DNA of 64,000 nucleotides from an uncultured Pseudomonadota bacterium (GTDB lineage Bacteria; Pseudomonadota; Gammaproteobacteria; Methylococcales; Methylomonadaceae), in assembly GCA_903867225.1 (NCBI GenBank), contig CAIPQN010000042.1, positions 38,992 through 102,991 of the forward strand, in the 5' to 3' direction. The notes beneath the pieces are model-generated. The model made no database searches, was not told where the DNA came from, and saw only the letters and a program-made list of their open reading frames with translations. The position numbers were made by a program, and so were the translations under genes. This document shows, in pieces, positions 22,566 through 63,410 of this stretch (position 1 is its first letter; each line of letters begins with the position of its first letter).

Positions 22566-23966
22566 TCATTTTTCTGCTTGTTGTCTGTCCAAAATAATTA
22601 AATCACCGCCTAACGCCTTGTGCAACGCTACATTTTGCTGTGCGATAGTCGCTAAACTTTCAATTTGTAAAATTTGCGTTTGATACGTTGTTTGCTGCGC
22701 TTGTAAAACATCGAGAAATCCCGTCAAGCCTTTTTCATAACGTTCGGTTGCAATATCTAGCACAGTTTGATTTGAGTGAATCGCTTGCGACAAAGCGTCA
22801 TAACGTTGTGATTCATTTCGATATGAAACTAACGCGTTTTCGACTTCTTGAAATGCCGTTAAAACGGTTGATTGATACGCTAAAAAGGCTTGTTCAAATT
22901 GCGCGTCTTTCGCTTCGATATTTGCCTGCAACTTTCCCCAATTAAACAGCGGCATCGTAATGGTTGATGCACTTGACCACGATTTTCCCATTGGCGTGAA
23001 ATCGGTAATTTTCAAATTTTGCAGTCCAATAAACGCCGCTAAATTCACTTTCGGATACAGTTCAGCCGTCGCAATACTGACGTAAGCATTTGCAATCGCC
23101 ATTTGTCGTTCGGCTTTGCGAATATCGGGGCGACGTTGCAGTAATTCAGACGGTAAATTTGTGATTGAAAGTGTTGAAGTTGGAATTGGTTTTGAATCAG
23201 AAAAACGTTTCGCCAGCGCATTCGGTTCACGTCCAAGTAAAACACTCAACGCATGAATCGCGTGTTTAATTTCGGTTTCATAACGCGGTAAATTTGCCGC
23301 TGTGTTATCAAATTGAGCTTGCGCTTGTGCGACTTCCAACGCGTTCGCCAAACCATTTTGTTGACGGACTTGTGTGAGTTTGACTGTTTCAGCCTGTGCG
23401 GCAAGTAATTCTTGAAGCGTGGCGACGAGTTTTTGATTCGTTCGCAACAAAATATATTCTCGCGCCACTTCGCCTTGTAACGTCAATAAAACATCGTGAC
23501 TATTTTCTGTTTCAATTTCAATCGACGCATCAGCGGCTTCGATGGCGCGTTGAATGCCACCAAAAAAATCAATTTCCCATGCCGCATCAAAACCGAGTTG
23601 AAAGATATTGATTGCTTGATTTGCAATGGGATTTACACCACCTGCAGATGAATTATTAAATCGACGACTAGCGACATTTTTCGCACTCAAACTCGGCAAA
23701 CCTGTTGCGATTGTTTCACGTCGTAAAATCCGCGCTTCTTTTACACGCGACAACGCTTGTTTTAAATTCAAATTAGCTGTCGTCGCTTCAACAATTAAGC
23801 CGTTTAACGTCTCGTCATTAAACGATTTCCACCATTCAGAAGCTGTTTTTTGTGTGGCAACGTCTTCGCTCCATTTTTCAGGTATTGGTATTTCGGGCGG
23901 CTTATAATCTCGTCCGACAACGCAAGCATTTAAAACTAACGGCAAGATAAAAATTAACTTTTTCAT
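22566..23966 (-). CDS. RND/ABC efflux outer membrane lipoprotein (NodT/TolC family)
   Basis: Lipobox LPLVLNACVVG; LLQRRPDIRKAERQMAIANAYVSIATAELYPKVNL. Confidence 0.92.
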   Translation of the reverse strand: MKKLIFILPLVLNACVVGRDYKPPEIPIPEKWSEDVATQKTASEWWKSFNDETLNGLIVEATTANLNLKQALSRVKEARILRRETIATGLPSLSAKNVASRRFNNSSAGGVNPIANQAINIFQLGFDAAWEIDFFGGIQRAIEAADASIEIETENSHDVLLTLQGEVAREYILLRTNQKLVATLQELLAAQAETVKLTQVRQQNGLANALEVAQAQAQFDNTAANLPRYETEIKHAIHALSVLLGREPNALAKRFSDSKPIPTSTLSITNLPSELLQRRPDIRKAERQMAIANAYVSIATAELYPKVNLAAFIGLQNLKITDFTPMGKSWSSASTITMPLFNWGKLQANIEAKDAQFEQAFLAYQSTVLTAFQEVENALVSYRNESQRYDALSQAIHSNQTVLDIATERYEKGLTGFLDVLQAQQTTYQTQILQIESLATIAQQNVALHKALGGDLIILDRQQAEK

Positions 23967-23967
23967 T

Positions 23968-24393
23968 TTATGGGTTTGCTCGTAAACAGGAAAAAATGTC
24001 TTTCACATCAACATAAATGAAATAAAAAACGGGCGTGTCAAAAAGTAGGATTTCGTCGTAACGGATTTGAGTTTGTTCGCAGGTTTTTGAGCAATTGGTT
24101 TCGTCCAACGTGATGCAATACGTCACAGGGATTTCAACCTTGTCGCCGTTTTTGTGAATGCCATCGACAATAAATTCATAAAAATGCGCGAAAAAATCAT
24201 CAAAGTTTTTTCGGTCAAAATCTAAATCTGCAAAGGCGGCGGATTCGTCGATGGGTTTGAAAGATTGAATGTTTCGTGCAACAAAAAAATTTTCGACTGT
24301 TGGTAAAATCAACTCACGTTTAATTTTTTCGACATTTTTAACGCCAAAATAGCCAACAAACTGACTTTTGGATTTTGAGCTAAATTCAATCAT
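23968..24393 (-). CDS. Hypothetical protein
   Basis: 141-aa ORF, stop 1 nt before the OMF start codon; tight operon spacing; no recognised family. Confidence 0.6.
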   Translation of the reverse strand: MIEFSSKSKSQFVGYFGVKNVEKIKRELILPTVENFFVARNIQSFKPIDESAAFADLDFDRKNFDDFFAHFYEFIVDGIHKNGDKVEIPVTYCITLDETNCSKTCEQTQIRYDEILLFDTPVFYFIYVDVKDIFSCLRANP

Positions 24394-24657
24394 TTAAACT
24401 GTTTGGGTGAGTTTTAATTCTTTACGAACTATATCGTTAATTAACGCTTCTAATTTTTTACGATTTGAACCATAGTTTTTATTGATAAAATCTAAAATGT
24501 CACCGTGAATTTTTACAGGTTCAGGTTCTAAACAGCCTTCTCTGAATTCATTCATTTGTTCGTCATTGATAATTCCAATTGAATGAAATCCGCTCATCGT
24601 GTCATAAACAGCCTCAAGCACTTTACTGTTATTTTTAATTTTCGTTTTAGTTTTCAT
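24394..24657 (-). CDS. Type II antitoxin, HigA-like N-terminus with BrnA-like C-terminus
   Basis: SKVLEAVYDTMSGFHSIGIINDEQMNEFREGCL then DILDFINKNYGSNRKKLEALINDIVRKEL. Confidence 0.6.
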   Translation of the reverse strand: MKTKTKIKNNSKVLEAVYDTMSGFHSIGIINDEQMNEFREGCLEPEPVKIHGDILDFINKNYGSNRKKLEALINDIVRKELKLTQTV

Positions 24658-24658
24658 T

Positions 24659-25036
24659 TTAAATTTCCGTTATCTCATTGGTTTTCACGGCAAGGGTAAT
24701 TTGAATGTCAGTGGCTGACAATATGATTTTAGCTGCCTTTTTTAATTCTTTTAATTGTTGCGAGTCGATGTTATCACGCTGATTTTTTTCAAATCCCAAC
24801 ATAAAAAACCAACGGTCATTTTTGTTAGTAGCAATCAATGTTCGGATGCTTCCACTTTTGCCACGATTCGGCAAAGCCACTCGCTTTTTAAAAACGCCAC
24901 CGCCTAAATCGGCATCAATTAAACCACGTTCCATTTCTTCAACCGCGTTAAGTAATAACGCATCGGTTAATTCTGTTTTTTCTAGCCAATTTGAAAAGTA
25001 GCGAGTTTTGAAAATGCGTTTGTTTGTTTCAATCAT
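24659..25036 (-). CDS. RelE/HigB-like type II toxin
   Basis: FKTRYFSNWLEKTELTDALL...GGGVFKKRVALPNRGKSGSIRTLIATNKNDRWFFMLGFEKNQRDNI. Confidence 0.8.
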   Translation of the reverse strand: MIETNKRIFKTRYFSNWLEKTELTDALLLNAVEEMERGLIDADLGGGVFKKRVALPNRGKSGSIRTLIATNKNDRWFFMLGFEKNQRDNIDSQQLKELKKAAKIILSATDIQITLAVKTNEITEI

Positions 25037-26384
25037 GGGTTAGGTAGATTTGTTGAATGGCTGAAAAATCCGCTTTAAATACGCGTAAACAATTCTTTTG
25101 TAATCTCTCATGTACGCCATCTAAAAACTCATTTCTTCCAAAATTAGGAATTACAAATTGATTCTTTACTACAGCAGTCGGCTTTACTTTTTGTAAGGTT
25201 AATTCATAACAAAGCTGTTTAGTTATATCACGTTGTATTTTTTCGTTATGGTCAATGAAACAGCTTTTATCCATATATTTCCAATCGAAAATGACAGTGT
25301 AGTTTAAATCTTGAAATACTAAATCAGGACGCATCCAACGTTTTTTATAATTAGGAAAACGAAATTCAATAAAAAATGGATCGTCAAAATCTTCTTTTTT
25401 GTAAATTGAGAAATAACCTGCTGATTTAGAATTTGAAACGTGTCTACTATTAAATACAATGTTTGTATCCGCATAAAGAATGCTATTTACTCCATTATTA
25501 AAATCTCTAAACGCCCACGTCGCACACATATCCTCCCAAACCGACGAAAAATTACTAATTCCCCAAAACGTTCCGTCTTCGTGCGGGTTGTCCATGTCTA
25601 ACTCGCCATAAAGAAACGTTTCAATCGCTTCGTAAAGTCGCCAATAATCTTCGTCTTTGTACGCGGTGCGTTTGTCGATGTCGTCTAAAACACCTTTGAG
25701 CGTGCGAATCGTGGTTTCAAATGTTTCTTCGTTAAACAACGATTCTTCATGACTTAAATGTTGCTCGCTGAAACGATGCGCCAATTCTTGCACACGCGGT
25801 TCGATGTCTTCTTCCAATTCGTTTTGCAATTCCGACACAATGAAACAAAACAAATCAATCAGCGTCGTTGATTCATAACGCAACGTTTGGCGCGGCAAAT
25901 CCATTTTGTCGATATAAATCACGTCATTCGGCAAATAAATCGCTCTGTCCAAATAGCGGTCAATTTTGGAATAATCGACTTTTTCATCTGCGCCAATGCG
26001 CCGTTCCATTTGGTCTAACGCCAAATCACGATAAACGTCTAACAAATTTTCGATTAACGCGATTTTGCTATAAAGCACCACGTCGTTATCTTCTTTGTTT
26101 TTGAAACGATAGCCGTCTTTTTCTTTCTGAATTTGGTCTTTTCCTGTGGGACGAGTGTCTAAAATGTTTTGTCGCCAATTGTCGCGTTCAAACTTTTGAA
26201 ACGTGCGATACATTTTGAAAAATAGCTCTTTCGTAGCCTCAAAATCATCTTCGGGAAAATCATCAAAACCGTGCGGCAAACGAAATTCGACTTCGCCTTT
26301 TTCATTTCGCCGAATACCGACAAAGGAATTCGTGCTTTCAGAATCACAGCGTTTGGTGAGTTTTAAGGTTTTGAAATTAAACAT
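25029..26384 (-). CDS. LlaJI/McrC-like restriction endonuclease subunit
   Basis: PD-(D/E)xK-like MRPDLVFQDLNYTVIFDWKYMDK; 8-nt overlap with the McrB-like gene. Confidence 0.7.
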   Translation of the reverse strand: MFNFKTLKLTKRCDSESTNSFVGIRRNEKGEVEFRLPHGFDDFPEDDFEATKELFFKMYRTFQKFERDNWRQNILDTRPTGKDQIQKEKDGYRFKNKEDNDVVLYSKIALIENLLDVYRDLALDQMERRIGADEKVDYSKIDRYLDRAIYLPNDVIYIDKMDLPRQTLRYESTTLIDLFCFIVSELQNELEEDIEPRVQELAHRFSEQHLSHEESLFNEETFETTIRTLKGVLDDIDKRTAYKDEDYWRLYEAIETFLYGELDMDNPHEDGTFWGISNFSSVWEDMCATWAFRDFNNGVNSILYADTNIVFNSRHVSNSKSAGYFSIYKKEDFDDPFFIEFRFPNYKKRWMRPDLVFQDLNYTVIFDWKYMDKSCFIDHNEKIQRDITKQLCYELTLQKVKPTAVVKNQFVIPNFGRNEFLDGVHERLQKNCLRVFKADFSAIQQIYLTHD

Positions 26385-28605
26385 TTTTGAAGTTATCTAT
26401 TTTCTCAATAAACAAATCCACCTGTGTCGCAAAATCCCCAAACGTAATCAGCGGTAATTCATCATGTTTTGTGTCTTTTCCAAATAGCAAATCAATCAAC
26501 GGTTTTTTATCGCGGTTAAAAACGCTGTCCCACAAGAAAAACATCAATTTGTTTTGAATGCTTGATTTTTGAATCACGTCGTCGGTGATGAAAAAATGCC
26601 CGATTTGTTTATCTTCAATGCCACGAATGGATTTGTGATTGCTTTTGATAAACGCATTCAATTTGCTGACAAATGCTTGCCATTCAACACGATTTTCAAA
26701 CGCCACGCCTTCGGCTGAAACCGTGTTTGAATCCACATCAATAAATTCCCATTCCCAACGGCGTTTGAATGCGCTATCCATGTAATAAATCGAACTATCC
26801 GACGTGTTCATGCTGGCGAGAATCGATAAATTTGGCGGAATTTTTATCGTTCGATTTTCAAAATGGCACAACAATTTTTTCTGCAAAATCTCGGTTTTAA
26901 TTTCTTCTTCGCCAAACAGATACGAAGTGACTTTTTTAACTTTTCCTTTTACGTTCGCATGTTCTGTTAAGTCACACAATTCAAGTAACCGATTAAAAAT
27001 AATTTCATTCACGCTCACTTCGTAACTCGACCAGCCGTCAGGTTCACGGTCAAGCAACTGAAAAATCGTGCCGAAAATCGCCGCCGAATTTCCACGATTG
27101 ATTTCGTCAATCACCAGTGCGACTTTTTCAACTTCGCTGTCGTTATCTTGCGCGGCGATGATGTTTTTGTAGGCTTGCGAAAGAGCTTTTAAAAAATGTC
27201 CTTCATAGAATTTATATTGCACATTACCGCCGACCGTTATCGGCATCAATTTTCCGACAAAATCGCCGTAAGTGTATTCAGGATGAAACACGGTTTTGAT
27301 GACGTTAGCAGGCATTTTTTCAACATCAATCAATAATTCATACGGAATAATATGCTTGTCGATTTGGTAACTTTTGCCCGTTCCAGGACTGCCGAAGAGG
27401 ATTTTTTGTTGGTAGGTTTTCATGTTTGTTTTTATCAACGATGTTGTTAATGGGTCTTTGATTATTTTTAAATTGGGTATGGTTAAAACATTTTTGGGAA
27501 TTTTCACACACTCGTCTAACCACAGTTTTTTTAAATTTTTTAAATTTGCAAAAGATTCAGGCAGTGTTTTTAATTGATTATTCTTTAATGCCAAATTTGT
27601 TAGATTGGTTAGGTTTCCAAAAAACTTGGGTAATGCAGTTAATTGATTTTCATGTAAGAATAATGCAGTTAGGTTAACCAAATTGCCAAAAGATTCAGGT
27701 AGTGTTTTTAATTGATTATTCTTTAATACCAAACCTGTTAGATTGGTTAGGTTTCCAAAAGACTTGGGTAATGCAGTTAATTGATTATCATATAAAGCCA
27801 AATCAGTTAAGGAAGTTAAATTACCAAGCGATTGTGGCAATTCAGTTAGTTGATTATCATGCAAAATTAAATTAGTTAAGGAAGTTAAATTACCAAGCGA
27901 TTCTGGTAATTTAGTTAATTTGTTACTTCGTAAATATAATTCATTTAAATTAATCAATTTTCCAATAGAACTTGGAACTTCTGTTAATTGATTACCTTCT
28001 AAATATAACTCTCGTAAAGAAATTAAATCACCAATAAATTCAGAAACGTTGGTTAATTTGTTATGTCCAAAACTTAAAATCCTTAAATTAGTCAGTCTAC
28101 CAATAGAATTTGGAATTTTTGTTAATTGATTGCCTTCTAATGCCAGCCAATCCAAAGAGGTTAAGTGACTAAGAAATTCAGGAAGATTTGTAAGTTGATT
28201 ATTATTTAAGTCTAACCTTTGTAAGTTGGTTAATTTGCTAATAACTTCTGGAATTTCTGTTAATTGATTACCGTTCAAATACAAAGCAGCTAAAGCAGTT
28301 AAATTCCCTAGAGATTCAGGAAGAGCTTTGAGTTGATTGTCTTGAAAACTTAGCTCTCTTAAATTTGTCAATTTGGCAATAGCTTCTGGAACTTCTGTTA
28401 ATTTATTTCCTTCTAAATCCAATTTTTGATTTATCCAAATAATTTTTTTATTTCGAGGTAATTGCTCATCTGAAATTTTATTTTCATCTGCCCAAACAAA
28501 AAGCTCATCCATCCATGCAGTGTCTTTTGGCAACGGTAATAAATGAGTTTGAATTTGTTGCTTTTGCCGTGATTGTAAAAGCGGTAAATTTGATTTTTGT
28601 GCCAT
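26377..28605 (-). CDS. Leucine-rich repeat protein fused to McrB-like AAA+ NTPase
   Basis: ~14 LRRs (LTELPQSLGNLTSLTDLALYDNQ type); Walker A GSPGTGKS; Walker B VALVIDEINRG; MNTSDSSI signature. Confidence 0.85.
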   Translation of the reverse strand: MAQKSNLPLLQSRQKQQIQTHLLPLPKDTAWMDELFVWADENKISDEQLPRNKKIIWINQKLDLEGNKLTEVPEAIAKLTNLRELSFQDNQLKALPESLGNLTALAALYLNGNQLTEIPEVISKLTNLQRLDLNNNQLTNLPEFLSHLTSLDWLALEGNQLTKIPNSIGRLTNLRILSFGHNKLTNVSEFIGDLISLRELYLEGNQLTEVPSSIGKLINLNELYLRSNKLTKLPESLGNLTSLTNLILHDNQLTELPQSLGNLTSLTDLALYDNQLTALPKSFGNLTNLTGLVLKNNQLKTLPESFGNLVNLTALFLHENQLTALPKFFGNLTNLTNLALKNNQLKTLPESFANLKNLKKLWLDECVKIPKNVLTIPNLKIIKDPLTTSLIKTNMKTYQQKILFGSPGTGKSYQIDKHIIPYELLIDVEKMPANVIKTVFHPEYTYGDFVGKLMPITVGGNVQYKFYEGHFLKALSQAYKNIIAAQDNDSEVEKVALVIDEINRGNSAAIFGTIFQLLDREPDGWSSYEVSVNEIIFNRLLELCDLTEHANVKGKVKKVTSYLFGEEEIKTEILQKKLLCHFENRTIKIPPNLSILASMNTSDSSIYYMDSAFKRRWEWEFIDVDSNTVSAEGVAFENRVEWQAFVSKLNAFIKSNHKSIRGIEDKQIGHFFITDDVIQKSSIQNKLMFFLWDSVFNRDKKPLIDLLFGKDTKHDELPLITFGDFATQVDLFIEKIDNFKNV

Positions 28606-28644
28606 ATTTTCTCCTTGTGTTGTGGCGATAAATTATTGCAATAA

Positions 28645-29589
28645 CTACAAACCACTCGCGCCATTTACTTCAATAAAAACATCCATTTGTTGCCCAACAT
28701 AGGCTGTTAAATCTTTCGGATTAAATTGATACAACGCTTGCAAAACGCGCGTATCCACTCGTTCTGTGCTGTCACCCGTCAGCGATTTTTTCGGTACAAC
28801 AAACGGCTCAACATAAGCGAGTTGTAAATCCACTTTAAATTGTCGATTGCCACGCAAATACGCAACCGCTTTTGAATTTTTATCAAATCGCCACGCATCG
28901 TTTTCATCAATATCGACGCGAACGTGCAGCGTTTTCAAATCGCCCAAAATCAAAAGCGGTTTTGATAACGCACCAGCCGTTGCAAATTCACCCGCGCGAA
29001 CATTGACTTGTAAAACATCGCCATCAATCGGCGCACGAACAATCAAACGATCTAACGTGGTTTCAGTTTGTAAAATCGCAGCTTGCGCTTGTTCAACAAA
29101 GGCGTTTGCACTTTCTAATTTTGCTTTGGCAACCGCGAGCGCGTTACGTCGTTTTAGAACTTCTTCGCCGCTGATGGCTCTTGAATCTGAATCTGAAACT
29201 GCATTTGCCAAATCAAATAACGATTGTGTGTCAGCAACATTCGCTTTTGCGACTAAAACATCGGCTTTGGCTTTGGCTAAATCGGCTTTTTTCATTGCCA
29301 ATTCCGCTTGATTTTCACGGTCATCTAAATAAAAAAGCGGTGTGCCTGTGCTGATTTTATCGCCAACTTTTACCACGACTTTGCTGACTAATCGCGCAAG
29401 TGGTGAGCCGATGGCAATATTTTCATTTTTTGGTTCGATAATTCCCGCGCCAGCAATGAAATTTTGAAATGGCGCAGATGCTGGTTCAACTAACGCAGGT
29501 GCAATCGGAACAGGTTTGTTACTGTTCACAACGGTGTAAGAGGCAAATAAAAATCCAGCAGCGGCAAGTATCGGAAGGGTATATTTCAT
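28645..29589 (-). CDS. HlyD-family membrane fusion protein of ABC exporter
   Basis: AGAGIIEPKNENIAIGSPLARLVSKVVVKVGDKISTGTPLFYLDDRENQAEL; coiled coil; 4-nt overlap with ATPase gene. Confidence 0.88.
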   Translation of the reverse strand: MKYTLPILAAAGFLFASYTVVNSNKPVPIAPALVEPASAPFQNFIAGAGIIEPKNENIAIGSPLARLVSKVVVKVGDKISTGTPLFYLDDRENQAELAMKKADLAKAKADVLVAKANVADTQSLFDLANAVSDSDSRAISGEEVLKRRNALAVAKAKLESANAFVEQAQAAILQTETTLDRLIVRAPIDGDVLQVNVRAGEFATAGALSKPLLILGDLKTLHVRVDIDENDAWRFDKNSKAVAYLRGNRQFKVDLQLAYVEPFVVPKKSLTGDSTERVDTRVLQALYQFNPKDLTAYVGQQMDVFIEVNGASGL

Positions 29590-30284
29590 GTAGTTCTCAA
29601 CGGTTCAGAAATTTTAACAATATGCCCATCATCCATTTCAGCCATTCGGTCGGCAAAATTAAAAATGCGCGAATCATGCGTCACAATCACTAACGCGCGA
29701 TTTTTATCAACTGCGACTTCTTTTAATAAATTCATCACATTATGTCCACTGGTATGGTCTAACGCGCTGGTCGGTTCGTCGCAAACAATTAGACGCGGGC
29801 TGTGAATTAACGCTCTGGCAATGGCTACGCGCTGTTGTTGACCGCCTGAAAGTTGCGAAGGAAAAGATTTCCAACGTTCGCCCAAACCAACCCGCTCCAA
29901 AACTTCAATGGCTTTCTTTTTGGCAACGTCGCGTTTTTCACCATTGATAATTAGCGGCACAGATACATTTTCAGCGGCATTTAACGACGGTAATAAATTA
30001 AATGCTTGAAAAACAAAACCGATTTGCGTGGCGCGAAAACGTAATTTATCTTTGCTTTTCATGGTTAATAAGTTTTCGCCAAATAATTCGCATAAGCCTT
30101 CATTTTGGTCGAGAATACCTGCGATAACTGAAATTAGCGTTGTTTTTCCACACCCTGAAGGTCCTACGAGCATCATCAATTCAGCTAATCGAATTTCTAA
30201 ATTAACACTATTCAACGCAGTCACTATTTGACCGCCTGTGTCATAGGTTTTGGTTAAATTTTCACAACGGACGGCGATATTCAT
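29586..30284 (-). CDS. ABC transporter ATP-binding protein (MacB/LolD type)
   Basis: Walker A GPSGCGKTT, signature LSGGQQQRVAIARAL, DEPTSALD; ATGA overlap with upstream gene. Confidence 0.95.
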   Translation of the reverse strand: MNIAVRCENLTKTYDTGGQIVTALNSVNLEIRLAELMMLVGPSGCGKTTLISVIAGILDQNEGLCELFGENLLTMKSKDKLRFRATQIGFVFQAFNLLPSLNAAENVSVPLIINGEKRDVAKKKAIEVLERVGLGERWKSFPSQLSGGQQQRVAIARALIHSPRLIVCDEPTSALDHTSGHNVMNLLKEVAVDKNRALVIVTHDSRIFNFADRMAEMDDGHIVKISEPLRTT

Positions 30285-31348
30285 TGCCAATTTTCATCAA
30301 TCAATGTGTGATAACCGCGTTTTTCGATAAATTGTAAAAACTCTTTTTTATCAGTTTTATCAGTCGTTGGAAATTCAACTTGTATTTCGTCGGATAGTTT
30401 TTTCAAAACGGCATCACCAACTACATCCGCAAACTTGCCGCGCAACGCTTTTTCATACCATCTAAGCAAATCACTTTCGGTCACGATACTTTGGATTTTT
30501 GATTTCCAACCCATTTGATTCAGTAACGAAACGATAATTTTTTGCTCCGTATCTTTGCAAACAATAACAATTCGGTCAGCTGATACAGACGACACAATGT
30601 TTTCAGCTAATTCTTCGATTAAAGAAAGGTGTTTAATTTGAATTGCTAAACCAAAATTTGCCCACATATCCAAACCACGATCAGCCGCATTTGTTACGCC
30701 GACACGGTTAATTCTAGCTTTAAGATTTATCGTGGTTTGTTCTGGGGTAAGTTGAATTACGCTTTTTGCAAAATCGGCGAATTCTCTGAGAATATCAGTC
30801 TTATCAGGGTTCATACTCACTTCAACGGACACTTCAAGAGCTTCAACTAAAACAGCAAATAACGCATAAACGATGATTTCATAAACTTTGTCGATACTTC
30901 GGCGCAATCCCGCTTCATGCCAAAACATAGCCAAAAATTCATCCAACTTAAAATCCGTTTTATCATGTATGACACAATAATCTAAGCCTGTAGACACTTG
31001 GCTGAAACGTTGTAAAAATTTGCGGTAAATGTACGCTTCAACAATACCGTTTGTGGCTCTGTTTTCTTTCCCTAAAATTTCTAAAATCGCTGGTGGCACA
31101 GCATTATCGTTAAAAATATCATCTTGATAACGTGCCGATGATGTACTTGTGCGACCTAAAAACTGAATGCAAATTACGTCACGCCATTTTTTTGATTTTG
31201 TGCGATAAGTTGTCAAATCCGAAAGTGTGATGTCTTGTTCGATTCTGTAACGGTAAAGAATTTCAGCAATTTGAATCGGTTTGTAAAGATGCACTCGCGC
31301 CTTATCAATGACTTTGTCTAACGCTTGTTTTGCTTCAATGATGTTCAT
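30281..31348 (-). CDS. HaeII-like type II restriction endonuclease
   Basis: 355 aa beside a m5C methyltransferase; RVHLYKPIQIAEILYRYRIEQDITLSDLTTYRTKSKKWRDVICIQFLGRTSTSSARYQDDIF recalled as HaeII-family-like. Confidence 0.65.
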   Translation of the reverse strand: MNIIEAKQALDKVIDKARVHLYKPIQIAEILYRYRIEQDITLSDLTTYRTKSKKWRDVICIQFLGRTSTSSARYQDDIFNDNAVPPAILEILGKENRATNGIVEAYIYRKFLQRFSQVSTGLDYCVIHDKTDFKLDEFLAMFWHEAGLRRSIDKVYEIIVYALFAVLVEALEVSVEVSMNPDKTDILREFADFAKSVIQLTPEQTTINLKARINRVGVTNAADRGLDMWANFGLAIQIKHLSLIEELAENIVSSVSADRIVIVCKDTEQKIIVSLLNQMGWKSKIQSIVTESDLLRWYEKALRGKFADVVGDAVLKKLSDEIQVEFPTTDKTDKKEFLQFIEKRGYHTLIDENWQ

Positions 31349-31355
31349 TTTTGCC

Positions 31356-32303
31356 TTAAATTAAATTCAGTTGTTTAGGTTCTGGTTTAGCAGTTTGTTG
31401 CAATTGCAAGGCGTTAATCATTTCACCTGCAATCGCTTTAATCACAGGAACAGAAACCGAATTCCCCGCAACTTTTCGCAATGACGAATAAGGCAACACA
31501 ATTTTAAAATCATCGGGAAAACCTTGTAATCGCAACATCTCTCTATCGGTTAAACGCCGCACGCCATTTACAACTAAATAGTTATAACTTCCACCTGCTC
31601 TCAAGGCGCAAGAATAAGGCAATGCTGAAATGTTACCGCCGATATTCTCATGCCATATTGACGGAAAAGGCGGTGCACCTTTGACAGCATTCAAGCGTTT
31701 TTGTTTAATCGTTTCAGATAGAAAATAACTCGGTGCAATGCCATCATCGTTTTCTAAAAATTCGCTCAACGGCTTGTAATATCCCAAAGGTTTTGGAAAA
31801 TCGAAGTGAACCGCTTGTAAAAAACCCACGATATAAATCCGTTCTCGTTTTTGTGGCAAACCAAAATCTAACGAATTAAAAACTTTGCTATAAACGGTGT
31901 AACCTAAATTTTTGAGCTTTTCCAAAATCACCGCAAACGTTTGACCATTATCGTGAGTGGTAAGGCGTTTAACGTTTTCTAACAAAAATGCACGCGGTCT
32001 TTTCGTTTCAAGTATCTTTTCAATGTTAAAAAATAATGTGCCGCGTGTGTCTGCAAAACCTAAGCCTTTCCCTGCAATACTGAATGGCTGACAAGGAAAA
32101 CCCGCTAATAAAATATCGTGGTCTGGAATGTCGTTTGGTTCAATTAAATTGATGTCACCGTGTGGCAATTCATCAAAATTCGCGTGATACATCTTTTGTG
32201 CATCTTTGTCCCATTCAGAAGTAAAAACGTTTTTACAGCCTTGTGATTCAAAACCTAAACGAATCCCACCAATGCCTGCGAATAAATCGATTATTTTATA
32301 CAT
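31356..32303 (-). CDS. DNA (cytosine-5-)-methyltransferase
   Basis: DLFAGIGGIRLGFE, GFPCQPFSIAGKGLGF, ENVKRL, QKRERIYIVGF, GNSVSVPVI. Confidence 0.95.
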   Translation of the reverse strand: MYKIIDLFAGIGGIRLGFESQGCKNVFTSEWDKDAQKMYHANFDELPHGDINLIEPNDIPDHDILLAGFPCQPFSIAGKGLGFADTRGTLFFNIEKILETKRPRAFLLENVKRLTTHDNGQTFAVILEKLKNLGYTVYSKVFNSLDFGLPQKRERIYIVGFLQAVHFDFPKPLGYYKPLSEFLENDDGIAPSYFLSETIKQKRLNAVKGAPPFPSIWHENIGGNISALPYSCALRAGGSYNYLVVNGVRRLTDREMLRLQGFPDDFKIVLPYSSLRKVAGNSVSVPVIKAIAGEMINALQLQQTAKPEPKQLNLI

Positions 32304-32312
32304 TTTTAATAT

Positions 32313-33473
32313 TCAACTTTTAAACACAATGGCAGGCTCCAAACGAATGACTTTGAGAATGCTAATAAGCGCGGCAAACATACAAATAAAACTCACACCT
32401 AAACCGCTAAAAATCAGTAATTGCCACGGAAATTTAAATGCCAAAATCGAATGTCGCATGGCATAACCAAATAATGCCGTTAATCCAACACCCATGCCAT
32501 AACCTGTACTTCCAACCAAAACGGCTTGCAACAAAATCATTCGTAACAACGTCCAATTACTCGTTCCCATCGCTTTTAAAACCCCAAATTGGCGCAAATT
32601 TTCAAGCGTAAAATTATAAAAAGTTTGTCCCGCAATCGCCGCACCGACAATAAAACCGAGCGTAATTGAAATACCGAAGTTAATCGGAATGCCTGTGTTT
32701 TTCATGAAATAGTTGAACGTCAAATCCATGAATTCTTGTTGCGTGTAAGCGGCTAAACCTGTGTTTGTGCGAATACGTTTTGTGAGTTCGGGGATATTTT
32801 GTCCCGCTTTGGCTTTTACCAAAACGAAAGACAGTAATTTACGTTCACGCGGGGCATACGTTTTGGCACGCGAATAAGTCGTGTAAATCGTGGGTTGAGA
32901 TTGAAATGTACGGGTGACTTTGGCGATTCCAACGACGATTGCACGGCGGTCATTAAGTTCTAAATTATCGCCCACTTTGAGCGGAATTTTTTTGCCGCCT
33001 TCGATTAAAGGCGGTTTTGCGAGTTTTTCATTTGCGCCATCAAAATCAACAATAACGCTGTCGCTACGTCGTAAATCGTCGAGTTTTCCTTCAACTAAAA
33101 TGGCAGGTGCGCCGATTAGCGTGGTGTCATCCAAACCAATCACGGTGCAATTTTGAAATGTACCGTCTGACATTCGCGCTTTTTGCATTCCTTTGTACAT
33201 GGGCATTGCCCATTCCACACCTGACACGCCACGAACACGATAAAGTTCAGTATCTTGCAACGATTTTATGTCGTCGATGAATTGCACTTTTTCATCCATT
33301 ACCCAAATATCAGGTAAACCAACATCTGTGATAAAGCTATAAGAACGCGCCATTAATCCCATGAAAATCGCGGGTTGTTGGGTCATAATTAACGAGGCAA
33401 ACGTTAAGCCCATCACAATGCCAATGTATTTGCCTTTGTCGCCCATCAACATTTTTATTGCGATGTAATTCAT
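32313..33473 (-). CDS. ABC transporter permease (FtsX/MacB/DevC-like)
   Basis: N-terminal TM, periplasmic domain, LRQFGVLKAMGTSNWTLLRMILLQ. Confidence 0.9.
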   Translation of the reverse strand: MNYIAIKMLMGDKGKYIGIVMGLTFASLIMTQQPAIFMGLMARSYSFITDVGLPDIWVMDEKVQFIDDIKSLQDTELYRVRGVSGVEWAMPMYKGMQKARMSDGTFQNCTVIGLDDTTLIGAPAILVEGKLDDLRRSDSVIVDFDGANEKLAKPPLIEGGKKIPLKVGDNLELNDRRAIVVGIAKVTRTFQSQPTIYTTYSRAKTYAPRERKLLSFVLVKAKAGQNIPELTKRIRTNTGLAAYTQQEFMDLTFNYFMKNTGIPINFGISITLGFIVGAAIAGQTFYNFTLENLRQFGVLKAMGTSNWTLLRMILLQAVLVGSTGYGMGVGLTALFGYAMRHSILAFKFPWQLLIFSGLGVSFICMFAALISILKVIRLEPAIVFKS

Positions 33474-54383: not shown

Positions 54384-56270
54384 ATGAAAATTAAACGCTT
54401 TTTTGCAGAAAATATACGACAAGCCATGCAAATGGTACGCGAGGAATTAGGCGCAGATGCGGTTATCATGTCCAATCGTGCTGTTGACGGTGGTGTTGAG
54501 ATTGTGGCGGCGCGTGATTTTGATGAACAAACGGTTCGCTCAAAAAGCACCTCGCATGGCGATGATCAACAACCCGATTATTTCAAACCGTCTTCGTCAT
54601 CTCAACGCGCTAAACGCGTTGATTTGCCCGACTTTCACACAGAAAGAAATAATTTGCACGTCATTAGCAGTCCTCGTAAACAAGAAGATCAGGTTTTCAG
54701 TAGCAGCACCGCTAAACGAGGAATTGATCAATATGTGGGTTACGCAGAAAAAGTTCAATTACGCGGTAATCCAGATGCTGTAAAACACAATTTCAATAAA
54801 GAACCTGCTCGCAAACAAGCGGCACCTGAAGCACCATATTCGCCACCGTCGATTATGATTAAAGTGCCAAAGAAAGCAAAACCACAGCCGCAACCGACAC
54901 ATCAACGTGAACCGATTTATCGTGAGCAAATGCCGCAACGTGAATCGATGTATCGTGACGACCCTGTGCCACAACGTGAACCGATTTATCGTGATGAACC
55001 AATGGCGCAACGTGAGCCGATGTATCGTGATGAGCCGCGACGTGAGCAAATTCCTGCACCGCGTGAAATGTATCGTGAACCGATGCAATCGCGTGAAGCC
55101 ATTATGCCGCAAGCGAGAAATACACAATCTGAAGTTCATCATGAAGCCCATGAATTACGCCAACATTTTAGCAGTAGTGATTATGAAGACGAATTCGATG
55201 AATTTTTAAACGAAGCGGTACAAGAAACTTATGCCGCACCAAAACGTGAAACATCGGCGCGTATTGAACCAATCATTAACGAAATTCCTGAACCTGTGCA
55301 AGCAGCACCAGTCATCGAAGAAAAAGAAAATCCTTCGGAAAAACTATTGCTGCAAGTAACGAAAGAATTAAAGTCGTTACGCAACACGATGGACAGTAAA
55401 TTATCAAGCATAAATTTCGCACATCATTCTCTGAATCCCAATTCCACACCGATTCGCAGCGAGTTATTACAAAAGTTAGCACGAATGAGTGTATCGAAAA
55501 AATTGAGCATTAAAATCGCCAATCGTTTCGCTAATCACACCAATTTCGATTTTGTCTTCACGCAAGCTCAAGAATTACTTGCTAAAGTTTTGCCATTAAC
55601 AACGGATGATTTACTTGAAACAGGTGGTGTTGTGGCATTGGTTGGACCAACTGGTGTAGGAAAAACGACGAGTGTAGCGAAACTTGCTGCTCAATTTTCA
55701 TTGAAACATGGCGCAAATCAAGTCGCGTTAATTACGACAGACAATTATCGAATTGCCGCACATGAACAATTAAATACTTACGGACGTATTTTGAATATGC
55801 CTGTACGAATTGCATCAAGCGCGGCGGAGTTAAGACAGTTAATTCACAGCTTCTCTGATAAAAAACTCATTTTGATTGATACTGCTGGCATGAGCCAACG
55901 CGATATGAAATTGATTGAACAAATCAATACACTTAAAGAAAACGATTTAACGGTGAAATCATATCTTGTTATATCGGCAGCGACCGAATATAAAGCAATG
56001 AATGAAATTATTGATGCGTTTGATACATTCAAACCACAAGCTGTTATTTTGACGAAACTTGATGAAGCGGCAACGATCGGTTCAGCCTTATCATCACTTA
56101 TTGAACATAATTTACCTTTATCTTTTATTACTAACGGTCAGCAAGTTCCCGAAGATATGCGTCATCCGAGTGCAAGAGAATTAGTTGCTCAATGCGTAAC
56201 AGAATTGGATGTTGAAGACGACGATTACGAAGAAAACAACGAAGCGTGGGTGGCTCAAGGATATGCTTAA
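54384..56270 (+). CDS. flhF: Flagellar SRP-like GTPase FlhF with repeat-rich linker
   Basis: ALVGPTGVGKTTSVAKLAAQF, DTAGMSQRD; N-terminal MKIKRFFAENIRQAMQMVREELGADAVI. Confidence 0.95.
   Translation: MKIKRFFAENIRQAMQMVREELGADAVIMSNRAVDGGVEIVAARDFDEQTVRSKSTSHGDDQQPDYFKPSSSSQRAKRVDLPDFHTERNNLHVISSPRKQEDQVFSSSTAKRGIDQYVGYAEKVQLRGNPDAVKHNFNKEPARKQAAPEAPYSPPSIMIKVPKKAKPQPQPTHQREPIYREQMPQRESMYRDDPVPQREPIYRDEPMAQREPMYRDEPRREQIPAPREMYREPMQSREAIMPQARNTQSEVHHEAHELRQHFSSSDYEDEFDEFLNEAVQETYAAPKRETSARIEPIINEIPEPVQAAPVIEEKENPSEKLLLQVTKELKSLRNTMDSKLSSINFAHHSLNPNSTPIRSELLQKLARMSVSKKLSIKIANRFANHTNFDFVFTQAQELLAKVLPLTTDDLLETGGVVALVGPTGVGKTTSVAKLAAQFSLKHGANQVALITTDNYRIAAHEQLNTYGRILNMPVRIASSAAELRQLIHSFSDKKLILIDTAGMSQRDMKLIEQINTLKENDLTVKSYLVISAATEYKAMNEIIDAFDTFKPQAVILTKLDEAATIGSALSSLIEHNLPLSFITNGQQVPEDMRHPSARELVAQCVTELDVEDDDYEENNEAWVAQGYA
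54901..55095 (+). repeat. Degenerate tandem repeats encoding QREPxYRDEPx units in FlhF linker
   Basis: HQREPIYREQMPQRESMYRDDPVPQREPIYRDEPMAQREPMYRDEP... Confidence 0.85.
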
Positions 56271-61178: not shown

Positions 61179-63410
61179 TTAGGCATAAATACTCAATAAA
61201 CCATTTGTGCCATTTGTTTCAATTACTTGACCATTTGCGAATTCATCTACAGATATTCCTTCCGCATTATTATTGCTAGTTACTGGATTACCTTGTGCGT
61301 CAACTTCTTGATTCGCTTGACGATTTCCCTGTCCATTCGCCGACGCATCAGCCATCATTTGAGCTGTTTGTTGTTGTGAACGACCAGAATCATTTGAATT
61401 TGAAGTCGATTGTTGTGAAACATTTACTTCGGCTAACGTTACTTGTTGAGAACTCAACATTTCGCGTAATTTAGGAATCGAGGCTTCTAACGCAGTACGA
61501 ACTTCGCTATTCTGCGCGGTAAATGCAATTGTGGCTTGATCTTGATTCATATCAATTCGTACCGTAATCGGTCCCATATTTTGCGGATTCATTTTAATTT
61601 CAGCACTCGAAATACCGCGATTAGTCATCCACACAATGCGCTCACCCATATCTTGATTCCATTCGGGATGCGAAATAGGTTTCGTCATCGCGGGAACATC
61701 GACTTTGGTATCTTGTATCAATTTATTTACTGCCGTTGAAACCCCTTGTGGAGCTGACTTATCGGCTGCTGATGTTATAGATGCGCCAATTACATCGGTT
61801 TTTTCAGCGGTTAATAACGAAGCAAACGATTTCAAATCGACTGCATTTTGTTTGTTATCAGTTGCTGAATTTAACAAACCATCACTTTGTAAGATAGGAT
61901 TTGACGGCGTATTGTTGCCACCATTATTACCATTATTACCATTATTTGCGGTATCACCACTAGAATTACGACTTGCGACCGCGTCCATTAACAATGTTTT
62001 TGCTGATGTTAGTGTTGGTTTATCAGTCGTTGTCGTGTCAGAAGATGTTTCAACTGCTACTTTTTGAGGTTCAACCTGAACAGATGTCGCTTGAGTTGTT
62101 ACTAATGGCACAACAATCGCATCGGTCATTACTTGAACAATCGGCGTATTAACTTCAGAGGCTTTATTTTCAGATTTGGTAACTGAAGGTGTAACGGTGT
62201 CACTAATTTTTTGTTTATCACTTATCAACTGATTTGCTATTGATGGCAATGCTTCGTTAGCTAATTGAGGTTCAATAGCAGCATCAGCACTCGGTTTATC
62301 TACAGTTAAAATAGGTGCTGTTTGTGTTTGTACAGTTGTTGTTTCAGGGTTAATAATGAGAACTTGTGGAGCAACTTCTGCTGATATTTTCTCTGCAGTT
62401 TGTGTTTGAACATTTTGAGTTTGTTCCGCTGCTATGCCTTCTGATTGCGAGGTAGTTGTGACAGGTGTTTGTACTTGTTCAGGCATTGCCGTTGTGACAG
62501 GTGTTTGTACTTGTTCAGGCATTGCCGTTGTGACAGGTGTTTGTACTTGTTCAGGCATTGCCGTTGTGACAGGTGTTTGTACTTGTTCAGGCATTGCTGT
62601 TGTTGCAGTTGTTTGTACTTGTTCAGGCACATCAATTTGCGTTACTACTGTTGCTGACGTTTGTACTTGTTCAGGCGTTGCTGTTGTTACAGATGTTTGT
62701 ACTTGTTCAGGCGCATCAACTTGCGCTGTTGTTATTACTGGCATTTGTACTGGTGTATCAACTTGCGTTGCTGTTGCCATTGGAGTCTGAACGAATGACG
62801 CTGGTGGCGTAACTTGTTGAGCCAAAATATTAGCAGCTGTATTCACTTGCGTATTAGTTACCGCTTGTTTCACAGCTAATTGCATACTTTCTTGTGTTAA
62901 CGAGGTTGCTGAATTCGCCGTAGGCAATTGGACAGATTGTCCAGCAGGTAAAGTGTCACCTAGTTTTACACCAGACGTAATAAATTTAAGTGTATCCGTT
63001 ACCGTAGATAAAATTGCCGAATCTTCAGCACTCATCATTGCTGTCGCCGTACTGTCTATCGTAGTAGGATTTGCCGAAGACGCATTAGTTGTCAAAGAAG
63101 TTTGTAACAACGTTGGCGTGTTTGCCATCTGAGTTGAATCAGTGGCAAGAGCAGTTGCTGTTGTTGCAGCAGCAAGCATTTCTGTTGTGGTTGGTGTAGT
63201 TGTTATGGCGGTAAGCAACGCAGAAGTTTGTGTTGTCAATGTGGCAGTGACATCAGTTGCTGGAGCGACTAATAAATCCATTTGCGTGTTCAACGCAGTT
63301 GAAAAACCTTCAGAAACAATTGCACCCGCCACTGTTGGTGACGTAGTCGCAGCAGCCCCATCAACAACAGGGGCAAATGTATTTATAGGTGAGGCTGTTA
63401 CGGTAATCAT
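61179..63410 (-). CDS. fliK: Flagellar hook-length control protein FliK
   Basis: T/Q-rich repetitive protein; C-terminal MNPQNMGPITVRIDMNQDQATIAFTAQNSEVRTALEASIPKLREML. Confidence 0.9.
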   Translation of the reverse strand: MITVTASPINTFAPVVDGAAATTSPTVAGAIVSEGFSTALNTQMDLLVAPATDVTATLTTQTSALLTAITTTPTTTEMLAAATTATALATDSTQMANTPTLLQTSLTTNASSANPTTIDSTATAMMSAEDSAILSTVTDTLKFITSGVKLGDTLPAGQSVQLPTANSATSLTQESMQLAVKQAVTNTQVNTAANILAQQVTPPASFVQTPMATATQVDTPVQMPVITTAQVDAPEQVQTSVTTATPEQVQTSATVVTQIDVPEQVQTTATTAMPEQVQTPVTTAMPEQVQTPVTTAMPEQVQTPVTTAMPEQVQTPVTTTSQSEGIAAEQTQNVQTQTAEKISAEVAPQVLIINPETTTVQTQTAPILTVDKPSADAAIEPQLANEALPSIANQLISDKQKISDTVTPSVTKSENKASEVNTPIVQVMTDAIVVPLVTTQATSVQVEPQKVAVETSSDTTTTDKPTLTSAKTLLMDAVASRNSSGDTANNGNNGNNGGNNTPSNPILQSDGLLNSATDNKQNAVDLKSFASLLTAEKTDVIGASITSAADKSAPQGVSTAVNKLIQDTKVDVPAMTKPISHPEWNQDMGERIVWMTNRGISSAEIKMNPQNMGPITVRIDMNQDQATIAFTAQNSEVRTALEASIPKLREMLSSQQVTLAEVNVSQQSTSNSNDSGRSQQQTAQMMADASANGQGNRQANQEVDAQGNPVTSNNNAEGISVDEFANGQVIETNGTNGLLSIYA
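62455..62598 (-). repeat. Four near-perfect 36-bp tandem repeats within fliK
   Basis: gttgtgacaggtgtttgtacttgttcaggcattgcc x4 (last copy ends gct); encodes (PEQVQTPVTTAM)n; degenerate copies continue to about 62720. Confidence 0.95.

Follow-up and report, generated by a model that had tools for sequence, protein, structure and literature searches.

Architecture and setting of the LRR-McrB module

The window, a 64,000-nucleotide stretch of DNA from an uncultured bacterium of the Methylomonadaceae, contains a reverse-strand module in which a single uninterrupted open reading frame encodes a helical cap, an array of leucine-rich repeats (LRRs) and a McrB-type GTPase motor (the LRR-AAA protein; Table 1). 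An earlier reading made from the letters alone (the sequence-only reading) had proposed a McrB-like AAA+ protein with an N-terminal LRR domain, and profile searches bear out both halves: Pfam LRR families match with E-values of 1e-44 to 1e-42, and the motor matches Pfam AAA_5 (2.4e-5), PADLOC REase_II (1e-32) and NCBIfam McrB (1e-12). The three motifs it had named were all located, GSPGTGKS at residues 405-412, VALVIDEINRG at 495-505 and MNTSDSSI at 599-606; the last, of the NxxD type, is invariant or nearly so in 31 sequences. In a PDB sequence search the motor matched McrB proteins best (6ut3, 8.5e-15), and searches of Pfam, PADLOC and NCBIfam returned only AAA_5/McrB-type matches for the ATPase and none to NACHT or NB-ARC. 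No B3 or other DNA-binding Pfam domain was found in the LRR-AAA protein. Three distant motor homologues, at 30-35% identity, lie on viral contigs.

The roughly 14 repeats first proposed resolve into 12 exact units of 23 residues with a degenerate unit at either end; the 12 motif matches compare with 0.0025 expected from shuffled proteins, among which the maximum was one. An AF2 model of the protein has a mean pLDDT of 87.7, with most of the LRR region between 89 and 98 and the motor also confident. Confidence is low at the N-terminus, at residues 348-366 and at the joint of residues 384-395, which is consistent with a flexible linker between LRR and motor. The methionine just before the motor is kept in headed relatives and is the start codon of headless ones. 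A short internal isoform beginning at Met395, comparable to McrB-S of Escherichia coli, is conceivable: headed loci keep the residue, but it is preceded by no clear Shine-Dalgarno sequence.

Table 1. Features of the module, with related features at other loci. Coordinates refer to the window unless a locus handle (L) is given.
Feature	Coordinates	Strand	Evidence or remarks
Short 5' leader CCACAACACAAGGAGAAAAT, common to LRR- and Mrr_N-headed loci	28606..28625	-	88-94% over 33-34 bp across start codon
LRR-AAA gene, 742 aa: helical cap, LRR head, McrB-type GTPase motor	26377..28605	-	ORF; Pfam/PADLOC/NCBIfam; AF2
Exchangeable head, residues 1-394: leader, cap 'AWMDELFVWADENKISDEQLPRNK', LRR array	27424..28605	-	relatives lack it or have Mrr_N instead; homology ends at this boundary
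LRR array, 12 exact 23-aa units (residues 79-354) plus degenerate flanking units	27490..28440	-	motif matches; per-position entropy
AAA+ GTPase motor from Met395 (start codon of headless homologues)	26377..27423	-	Walker A 405-412, Walker B 495-505, NTSD (NxxD) 600-603
McrC-like/R2.LlaJI-like nuclease subunit, 451 aa, PD354...D367-x-K369	25029..26384	-	Pfam RE_LlaJI 3.3e-9
Optional RelE-family toxin gene inside module	24659..25036	-	Pfam RelE 1.1e-42
Optional presumed antitoxin, 87 aa	24394..24657	-	always adjoins RelE gene; no Pfam match
Conserved third gene, 141 aa	23968..24393	-	ends directly before OprM start codon; found with motor in relatives; no known family or fold
Efflux operon	22566-33473	-	MacB-type permease, ABC ATPase, HlyD, OprM-like
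HaeII-type restriction-modification pair, complete	30281-32303	-	Pfam RE_HaeII 8e-154; C5 methylase
Tandem repeat array	54903-55033		36-bp period, 3.7 copies
Tandem repeat array	62455-62751		36-bp (97% matches) and 84-bp periods
Optional protein of ~220 aa	L010:4949-5632; L011:9058-9723; L012:7065-7727; L026:9052-9726		between motor and nuclease genes
Nuclease genes with differing C-terminal part	L011:9727-11070; L026:9730-11361		head and motor near-identical
Cap+LRR fused to T5orf172 (GIY-YIG-like)	L135:6676-8088; L158:2910-4157; L160:296-2149		includes window's own genome

The nuclease gene overlaps the LRR-AAA gene by 8 bp, and the PD-(D/E)xK-like motif first noticed in it holds up, with RPDLVF at residues 352-357 and VIFDWKY at 364-370; the PD...DxK residues are invariant in 13 homologues. 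Profile comparison gave no significant match to E. coli McrC (hhalign E 0.099); a two-sequence alignment places the catalytic residues of the two proteins in register, an alignment that carries no statistics. No Pfam match to DUF2357 was obtained, though PD...DxK is present, and a PDB sequence search with the nuclease profile gave no match. Downstream, the third gene follows the nuclease gene in all Methylococcales loci with enough sequence, and it is also present in loci of Moraxellaceae, Thioploca, Electronema and Cardiobacterium and on a plasmid of the cyanobacterium Geminocystis; a Nostoc plasmid encodes a weakly similar protein at this position. The third protein has no Pfam, NCBIfam, PADLOC or PHROG match, and a fold search gave nothing below E 0.8 from a model whose pLDDT is only 72. 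The RelE gene is optional, being present in L009, L011, L012 and L050 and absent in L008, L010 and L014-L018. Some relatives encode a further optional protein of about 220 residues with a hydrophobic N-terminal stretch and no convincing Pfam family.

The module lies inside an efflux operon, exactly at the junction of HlyD and OprM, two genes that follow one another directly in four relatives (L180-L183). The same operon is split a second time at a gene junction, between permease and ATPase, by the HaeII-type restriction-modification cassette; permease and ATPase genes are directly consecutive in L179, L181 and L182, and insertion has left the stop codon of the HaeII gene overlapping the likely start codon of the ATPase gene. 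Relatives' modules have only about 20 bp of leader in common upstream of the start codon, and beyond it no common sequence was found between LRR- and Mrr_N-headed loci. Given this short shared leader and the position within an efflux operon, expression of the module probably depends on the host operon. Two tandem repeat arrays lie elsewhere in the window.

Exchangeable heads on a conserved motor

Relatives were sought with the motor alone in a genome-collection scan, 237 genomes of the family and 311 of the order, and the motor was found at E <= 1e-50 in 20 genomes; in a class-wide sample of 369 genomes, only the window was found at this threshold. Most of the loci are MAG contigs, and a motor-based search is biased toward close kin, so that LRR-McrB proteins may also occur in distant groups. 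At least seven further assemblies of related Methylococcales contain fusions of LRR and AAA, and since these assemblies are independent, joining of a separate LRR gene to the McrB gene by misassembly is excluded.

Within the window's genus, motors that are 75-91% identical at the amino-acid level carry an LRR head (the window, L012, L013, L015, L043 and L054), an Mrr_N winged-helix head (L008, L009, L010, L011 and L026; PF14338 at 5e-17 to 6e-22 in the three tested) or, in L014, both in one ORF; in L050 the head is a degenerate LRR remnant. The proposal that the LRRs occupy the slot of McrB recognition domains is thus upheld, as near-identical motors hold a winged helix in the same slot. LRR heads are also found in two other lineages of the family (L016 and L018). 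In other Methylococcales and most of the cyanobacteria examined, the protein starts directly with the motor or has a short extension only, and a set of headless motor, nuclease and third gene is what other Methylococcales commonly have.

In a tree built from motor DNA, the LRR-headed proteins are not a single clade. Forcing the LRR-headed rows into one clade costs 175 log-likelihood units (p-AU 1.4e-6), and forcing the window together with L012 and L013 costs 102 (p 1.5e-5); the window's nearest motor, at 90%, belongs to the Mrr_N-headed L008. The exchange can be followed at a single orthologous chromosomal site, xerC-lpxA, occupied in L014 and L015: the two are 96.8% identical along 2425 bp that take in the flank and a short 5' LRR, and 86% identical again from the motor onwards, whereas the head segments between, about 330 bp (Mrr_N) in one and about 443 bp (cap and LRR) in the other, do not align. 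L054 and the window are 98.2% identical over 271 bp of motor and about 66% in the head, a case that is suggestive only because L054 is a 1.6-kb contig. Between the window and L012 or L013, leader and cap are 83-85% identical and the motor 86%, while the LRR array between them is not conserved, reaching about 66-72% in scattered registers. Taken together, these comparisons show an exchangeable head on a conserved motor.

The nuclease also varies. L011 and L026 have the same head (92.7%) and the first 340 or so nuclease residues in common, and the C-terminal parts of their nucleases are unrelated, so that the C-terminal end of this subunit forms a second variable slot.

What the head may recognise

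Repeat number differs among relatives, from about 3 to 12-13 units. The sequence-only reading had taken many units to be near-identical at the DNA level, which would allow rapid change in number, and here the comparison went against it: among the 66 pairs formed by the 12 units, one (units 10 and 12) is 91% identical, two are 77-78% and the rest 49-72%, which rules out slippage on near-identical repeat DNA for most units. Arrays and heads do turn over, and the visible route is the exchange of entire head segments. Within the unit, variability is highest at concave positions 5, 6, 8, 10 and 11 (2.2-2.9 bits of entropy), while most leucine and asparagine scaffold positions are invariant, with entropy of about 0. 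The scaffold is under strong purifying selection, with dN/dS of about 0.06 against about 0.84 at the concave positions. In recent pairs dN/dS on the concave face exceeds 1, on a handful of changes whose counts are too small to be more than suggestive of positive selection. The variability is equally strong in a T5orf172-LRR paralogue of the same genome, and is therefore a trait of this LRR family and not specific to the LRR-AAA protein.

Most LRR heads have a pI of 5.2-7.8, mostly acidic to neutral and not markedly basic, and D/E outnumber K/R on the concave face in all three LRR heads checked. Head charge is nevertheless weak evidence, because Mrr_N heads are not all basic either. The PDB structural neighbours of the LRR head are Leptospira LRR proteins, SHOC2, internalins and Roco. 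LRR domains normally grip other proteins, and well-known protein binders are among these neighbours. The variable, non-basic concave face and these neighbours favour binding of a protein by the head; the earlier suggestion of a protein sensor is to this extent plausible, with the ligand itself presumed. Matches to T3SS effectors (XopAE, XopL and others) were rejected as identities: they score far under curated cut-offs and cover only the LRR, and thus reflect generic LRR similarity.

Our preferred reading, held tentatively and at somewhat less than an even chance, is that the module encodes a methyltransferase-free defence nuclease of the LlaJI/McrBC type whose trigger is set by the exchangeable N-terminal head, here an LRR domain most likely sensing a protein. 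By analogy with McrBC, the AAA+ subunit would assemble into a ring driven by GTP and recruit the overlapping PD...DxK subunit, and the N-terminal slot would decide what activates the complex. That slot holds an Mrr_N winged helix, presumed to bind DNA, in sister loci; in the window it holds an LRR receptor that would most likely bind a protein which an invading phage or plasmid makes or exposes. Ligand binding would then license ring assembly or GTP hydrolysis, followed by cleavage of DNA, the presumed substrate, with the third protein presumably contributing. These steps are drawn from what is known of the family. R1.LlaJI showed no GTPase activity in vitro (PMC1459862), which we count against this reading, together with the lack of a profile match between the nuclease subunit and E. 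coli McrC and the equal concave-face variability of the T5orf172-LRR paralogue. A further-reaching version holds that a restriction motor nuclease has given up its DNA-recognition domain for LRR cassettes and become a protein-triggered, NLR-like immune receptor, with cassettes of diversified face traded between species at a fixed joint ahead of an otherwise conserved motor; we consider it possible but rather doubtful.

Since headless homologues are common, the core probably works without a head too, and the LRR may only modulate it. In an alternative that we judge unlikely, yet worth serious consideration, the LRR is an accessory scaffold, or an autoinhibitory or oligomerisation domain, and DNA targeting resides in the variable C-terminal part of the nuclease, in the third protein or in both. 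In the headless relatives targeting must indeed lie outside the head, the second variable slot of L011 and L026 would offer a place for it, and many nuclease homologues carry an insert of roughly 100 residues between PD and DxK that is absent from the window protein. Such a role leaves the exchange with Mrr_N at the same position unexplained, however, and a pure scaffold needs no variable concave surface.

A nucleic-acid-binding LRR head, serving an ordinary sequence- or modification-dependent restriction enzyme as an unusual specificity domain for DNA or RNA, is improbable in view of the acidic residues on the concave face and the protein-binding structural neighbours, even though every characterised head in this slot is DNA-binding (PMC7680126, PMC1459862) and relatives use Mrr_N. 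We give similarly little credence to the idea that the fusion lacks a function and is a passing outcome of recombination that joined standalone LRR genes to a mobile McrB module. Scars of head gain do occur: in L015 a short LRR ORF lies one stop codon away from the LRR-AAA gene, L050 retains its LRR remnant, the AAA gene of L043 is frameshifted and the nuclease gene of L008 is split. Against this, all three genes, for the LRR-AAA protein, the nuclease and the third protein, keep open reading frames in the window and in L012, L014, L015, L016 and L018, loci whose motors differ by up to about 28% at the DNA level, and the purifying selection on the LRR scaffold argues likewise.

The characterised McrB and LlaJI heads recognise DNA; if a protein-recognising head is correct, it would show that a restriction motor can be converted to effector-triggered immunity. 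Near-identical natural motors with an LRR head, an Mrr_N head, both or none provide material for head swaps that could test specificity. Annotation pipelines would label the LRR-AAA protein either as a Type II restriction enzyme or as an LRR protein, and the third gene would escape them.

Relation to known systems

The searchable literature, which excludes supplements and subscription papers, contained no description of an LRR-McrB or LRR-McrBC protein. Known N-termini in this slot of McrB-type motors are DUF3578, YTH and B3 domains (PMC7680126). The closest parallel in parts is LlaJI, which has an AAA+ McrB-like R1 with an N-terminal specificity slot and an R2 with PD...DxK, the family that the window nuclease matches. 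R1.LlaJI is the sole specificity subunit of that system, and its N-terminus binds DNA, whereas the window head is an LRR domain and is accompanied by a conserved third gene. LlaJI also has two 5mC methyltransferases (PMC1459862), whereas no dedicated methyltransferase adjoins the window module. The C5 methyltransferase in the window pairs with the HaeII homologue, and a blastp search of the fetched flanks (up to 8 kb) of Methylococcales and cyanobacterial modules found none like it, a search by which dissimilar methyltransferases could be missed; many Bacteroidota relatives have a C5 methyltransferase just upstream of the module. A system that is LlaJI-like in parts but lacks a modification partner needs some way of sparing self-DNA, and a protein trigger would be one answer.

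McrBC of the Type IV class (E. coli, T. gammatolerans) shares with the window a sequence-related motor with NxxD and Walker A and B motifs, and the order of an upstream motor gene and an overlapping downstream nuclease gene. It differs in its head, DUF3578 or YTH in place of LRR, and in a nuclease subunit that profiles do not align between E. coli McrC and the window. CoCoNuTs likewise place a McrB-like motor in systems with unusual extra domains; their motors carry NxD and coiled coils, whereas the window motor carries NxxD and has the LRR fused to the McrB-like motor itself. In the accessible part of a McrBC census, LRRs are mentioned only on the CDC48-like ATPase of some CoCoNuTs (PMC11090510). 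The T5orf172-LRR proteins of the same genus, such as that of L135, have the same cap sequence and LRR type on another domain, possibly nuclease-related, so that the cassette is reused, but they lack a McrB motor and a nuclease operon. Finally, the analogy with STAND/NLR receptors drawn in the sequence-only reading is looser than was stated. It stands as regards the idea of a repeat-domain receptor on a P-loop switch; it does not extend to the motor, which is a McrB-type AAA+ and not NACHT or NB-ARC. One described bacterial NLR-like system uses TPR-like repeats in place of LRRs (PMC13236601). In the window the receptor is N-terminal and the effector is a separate nuclease.
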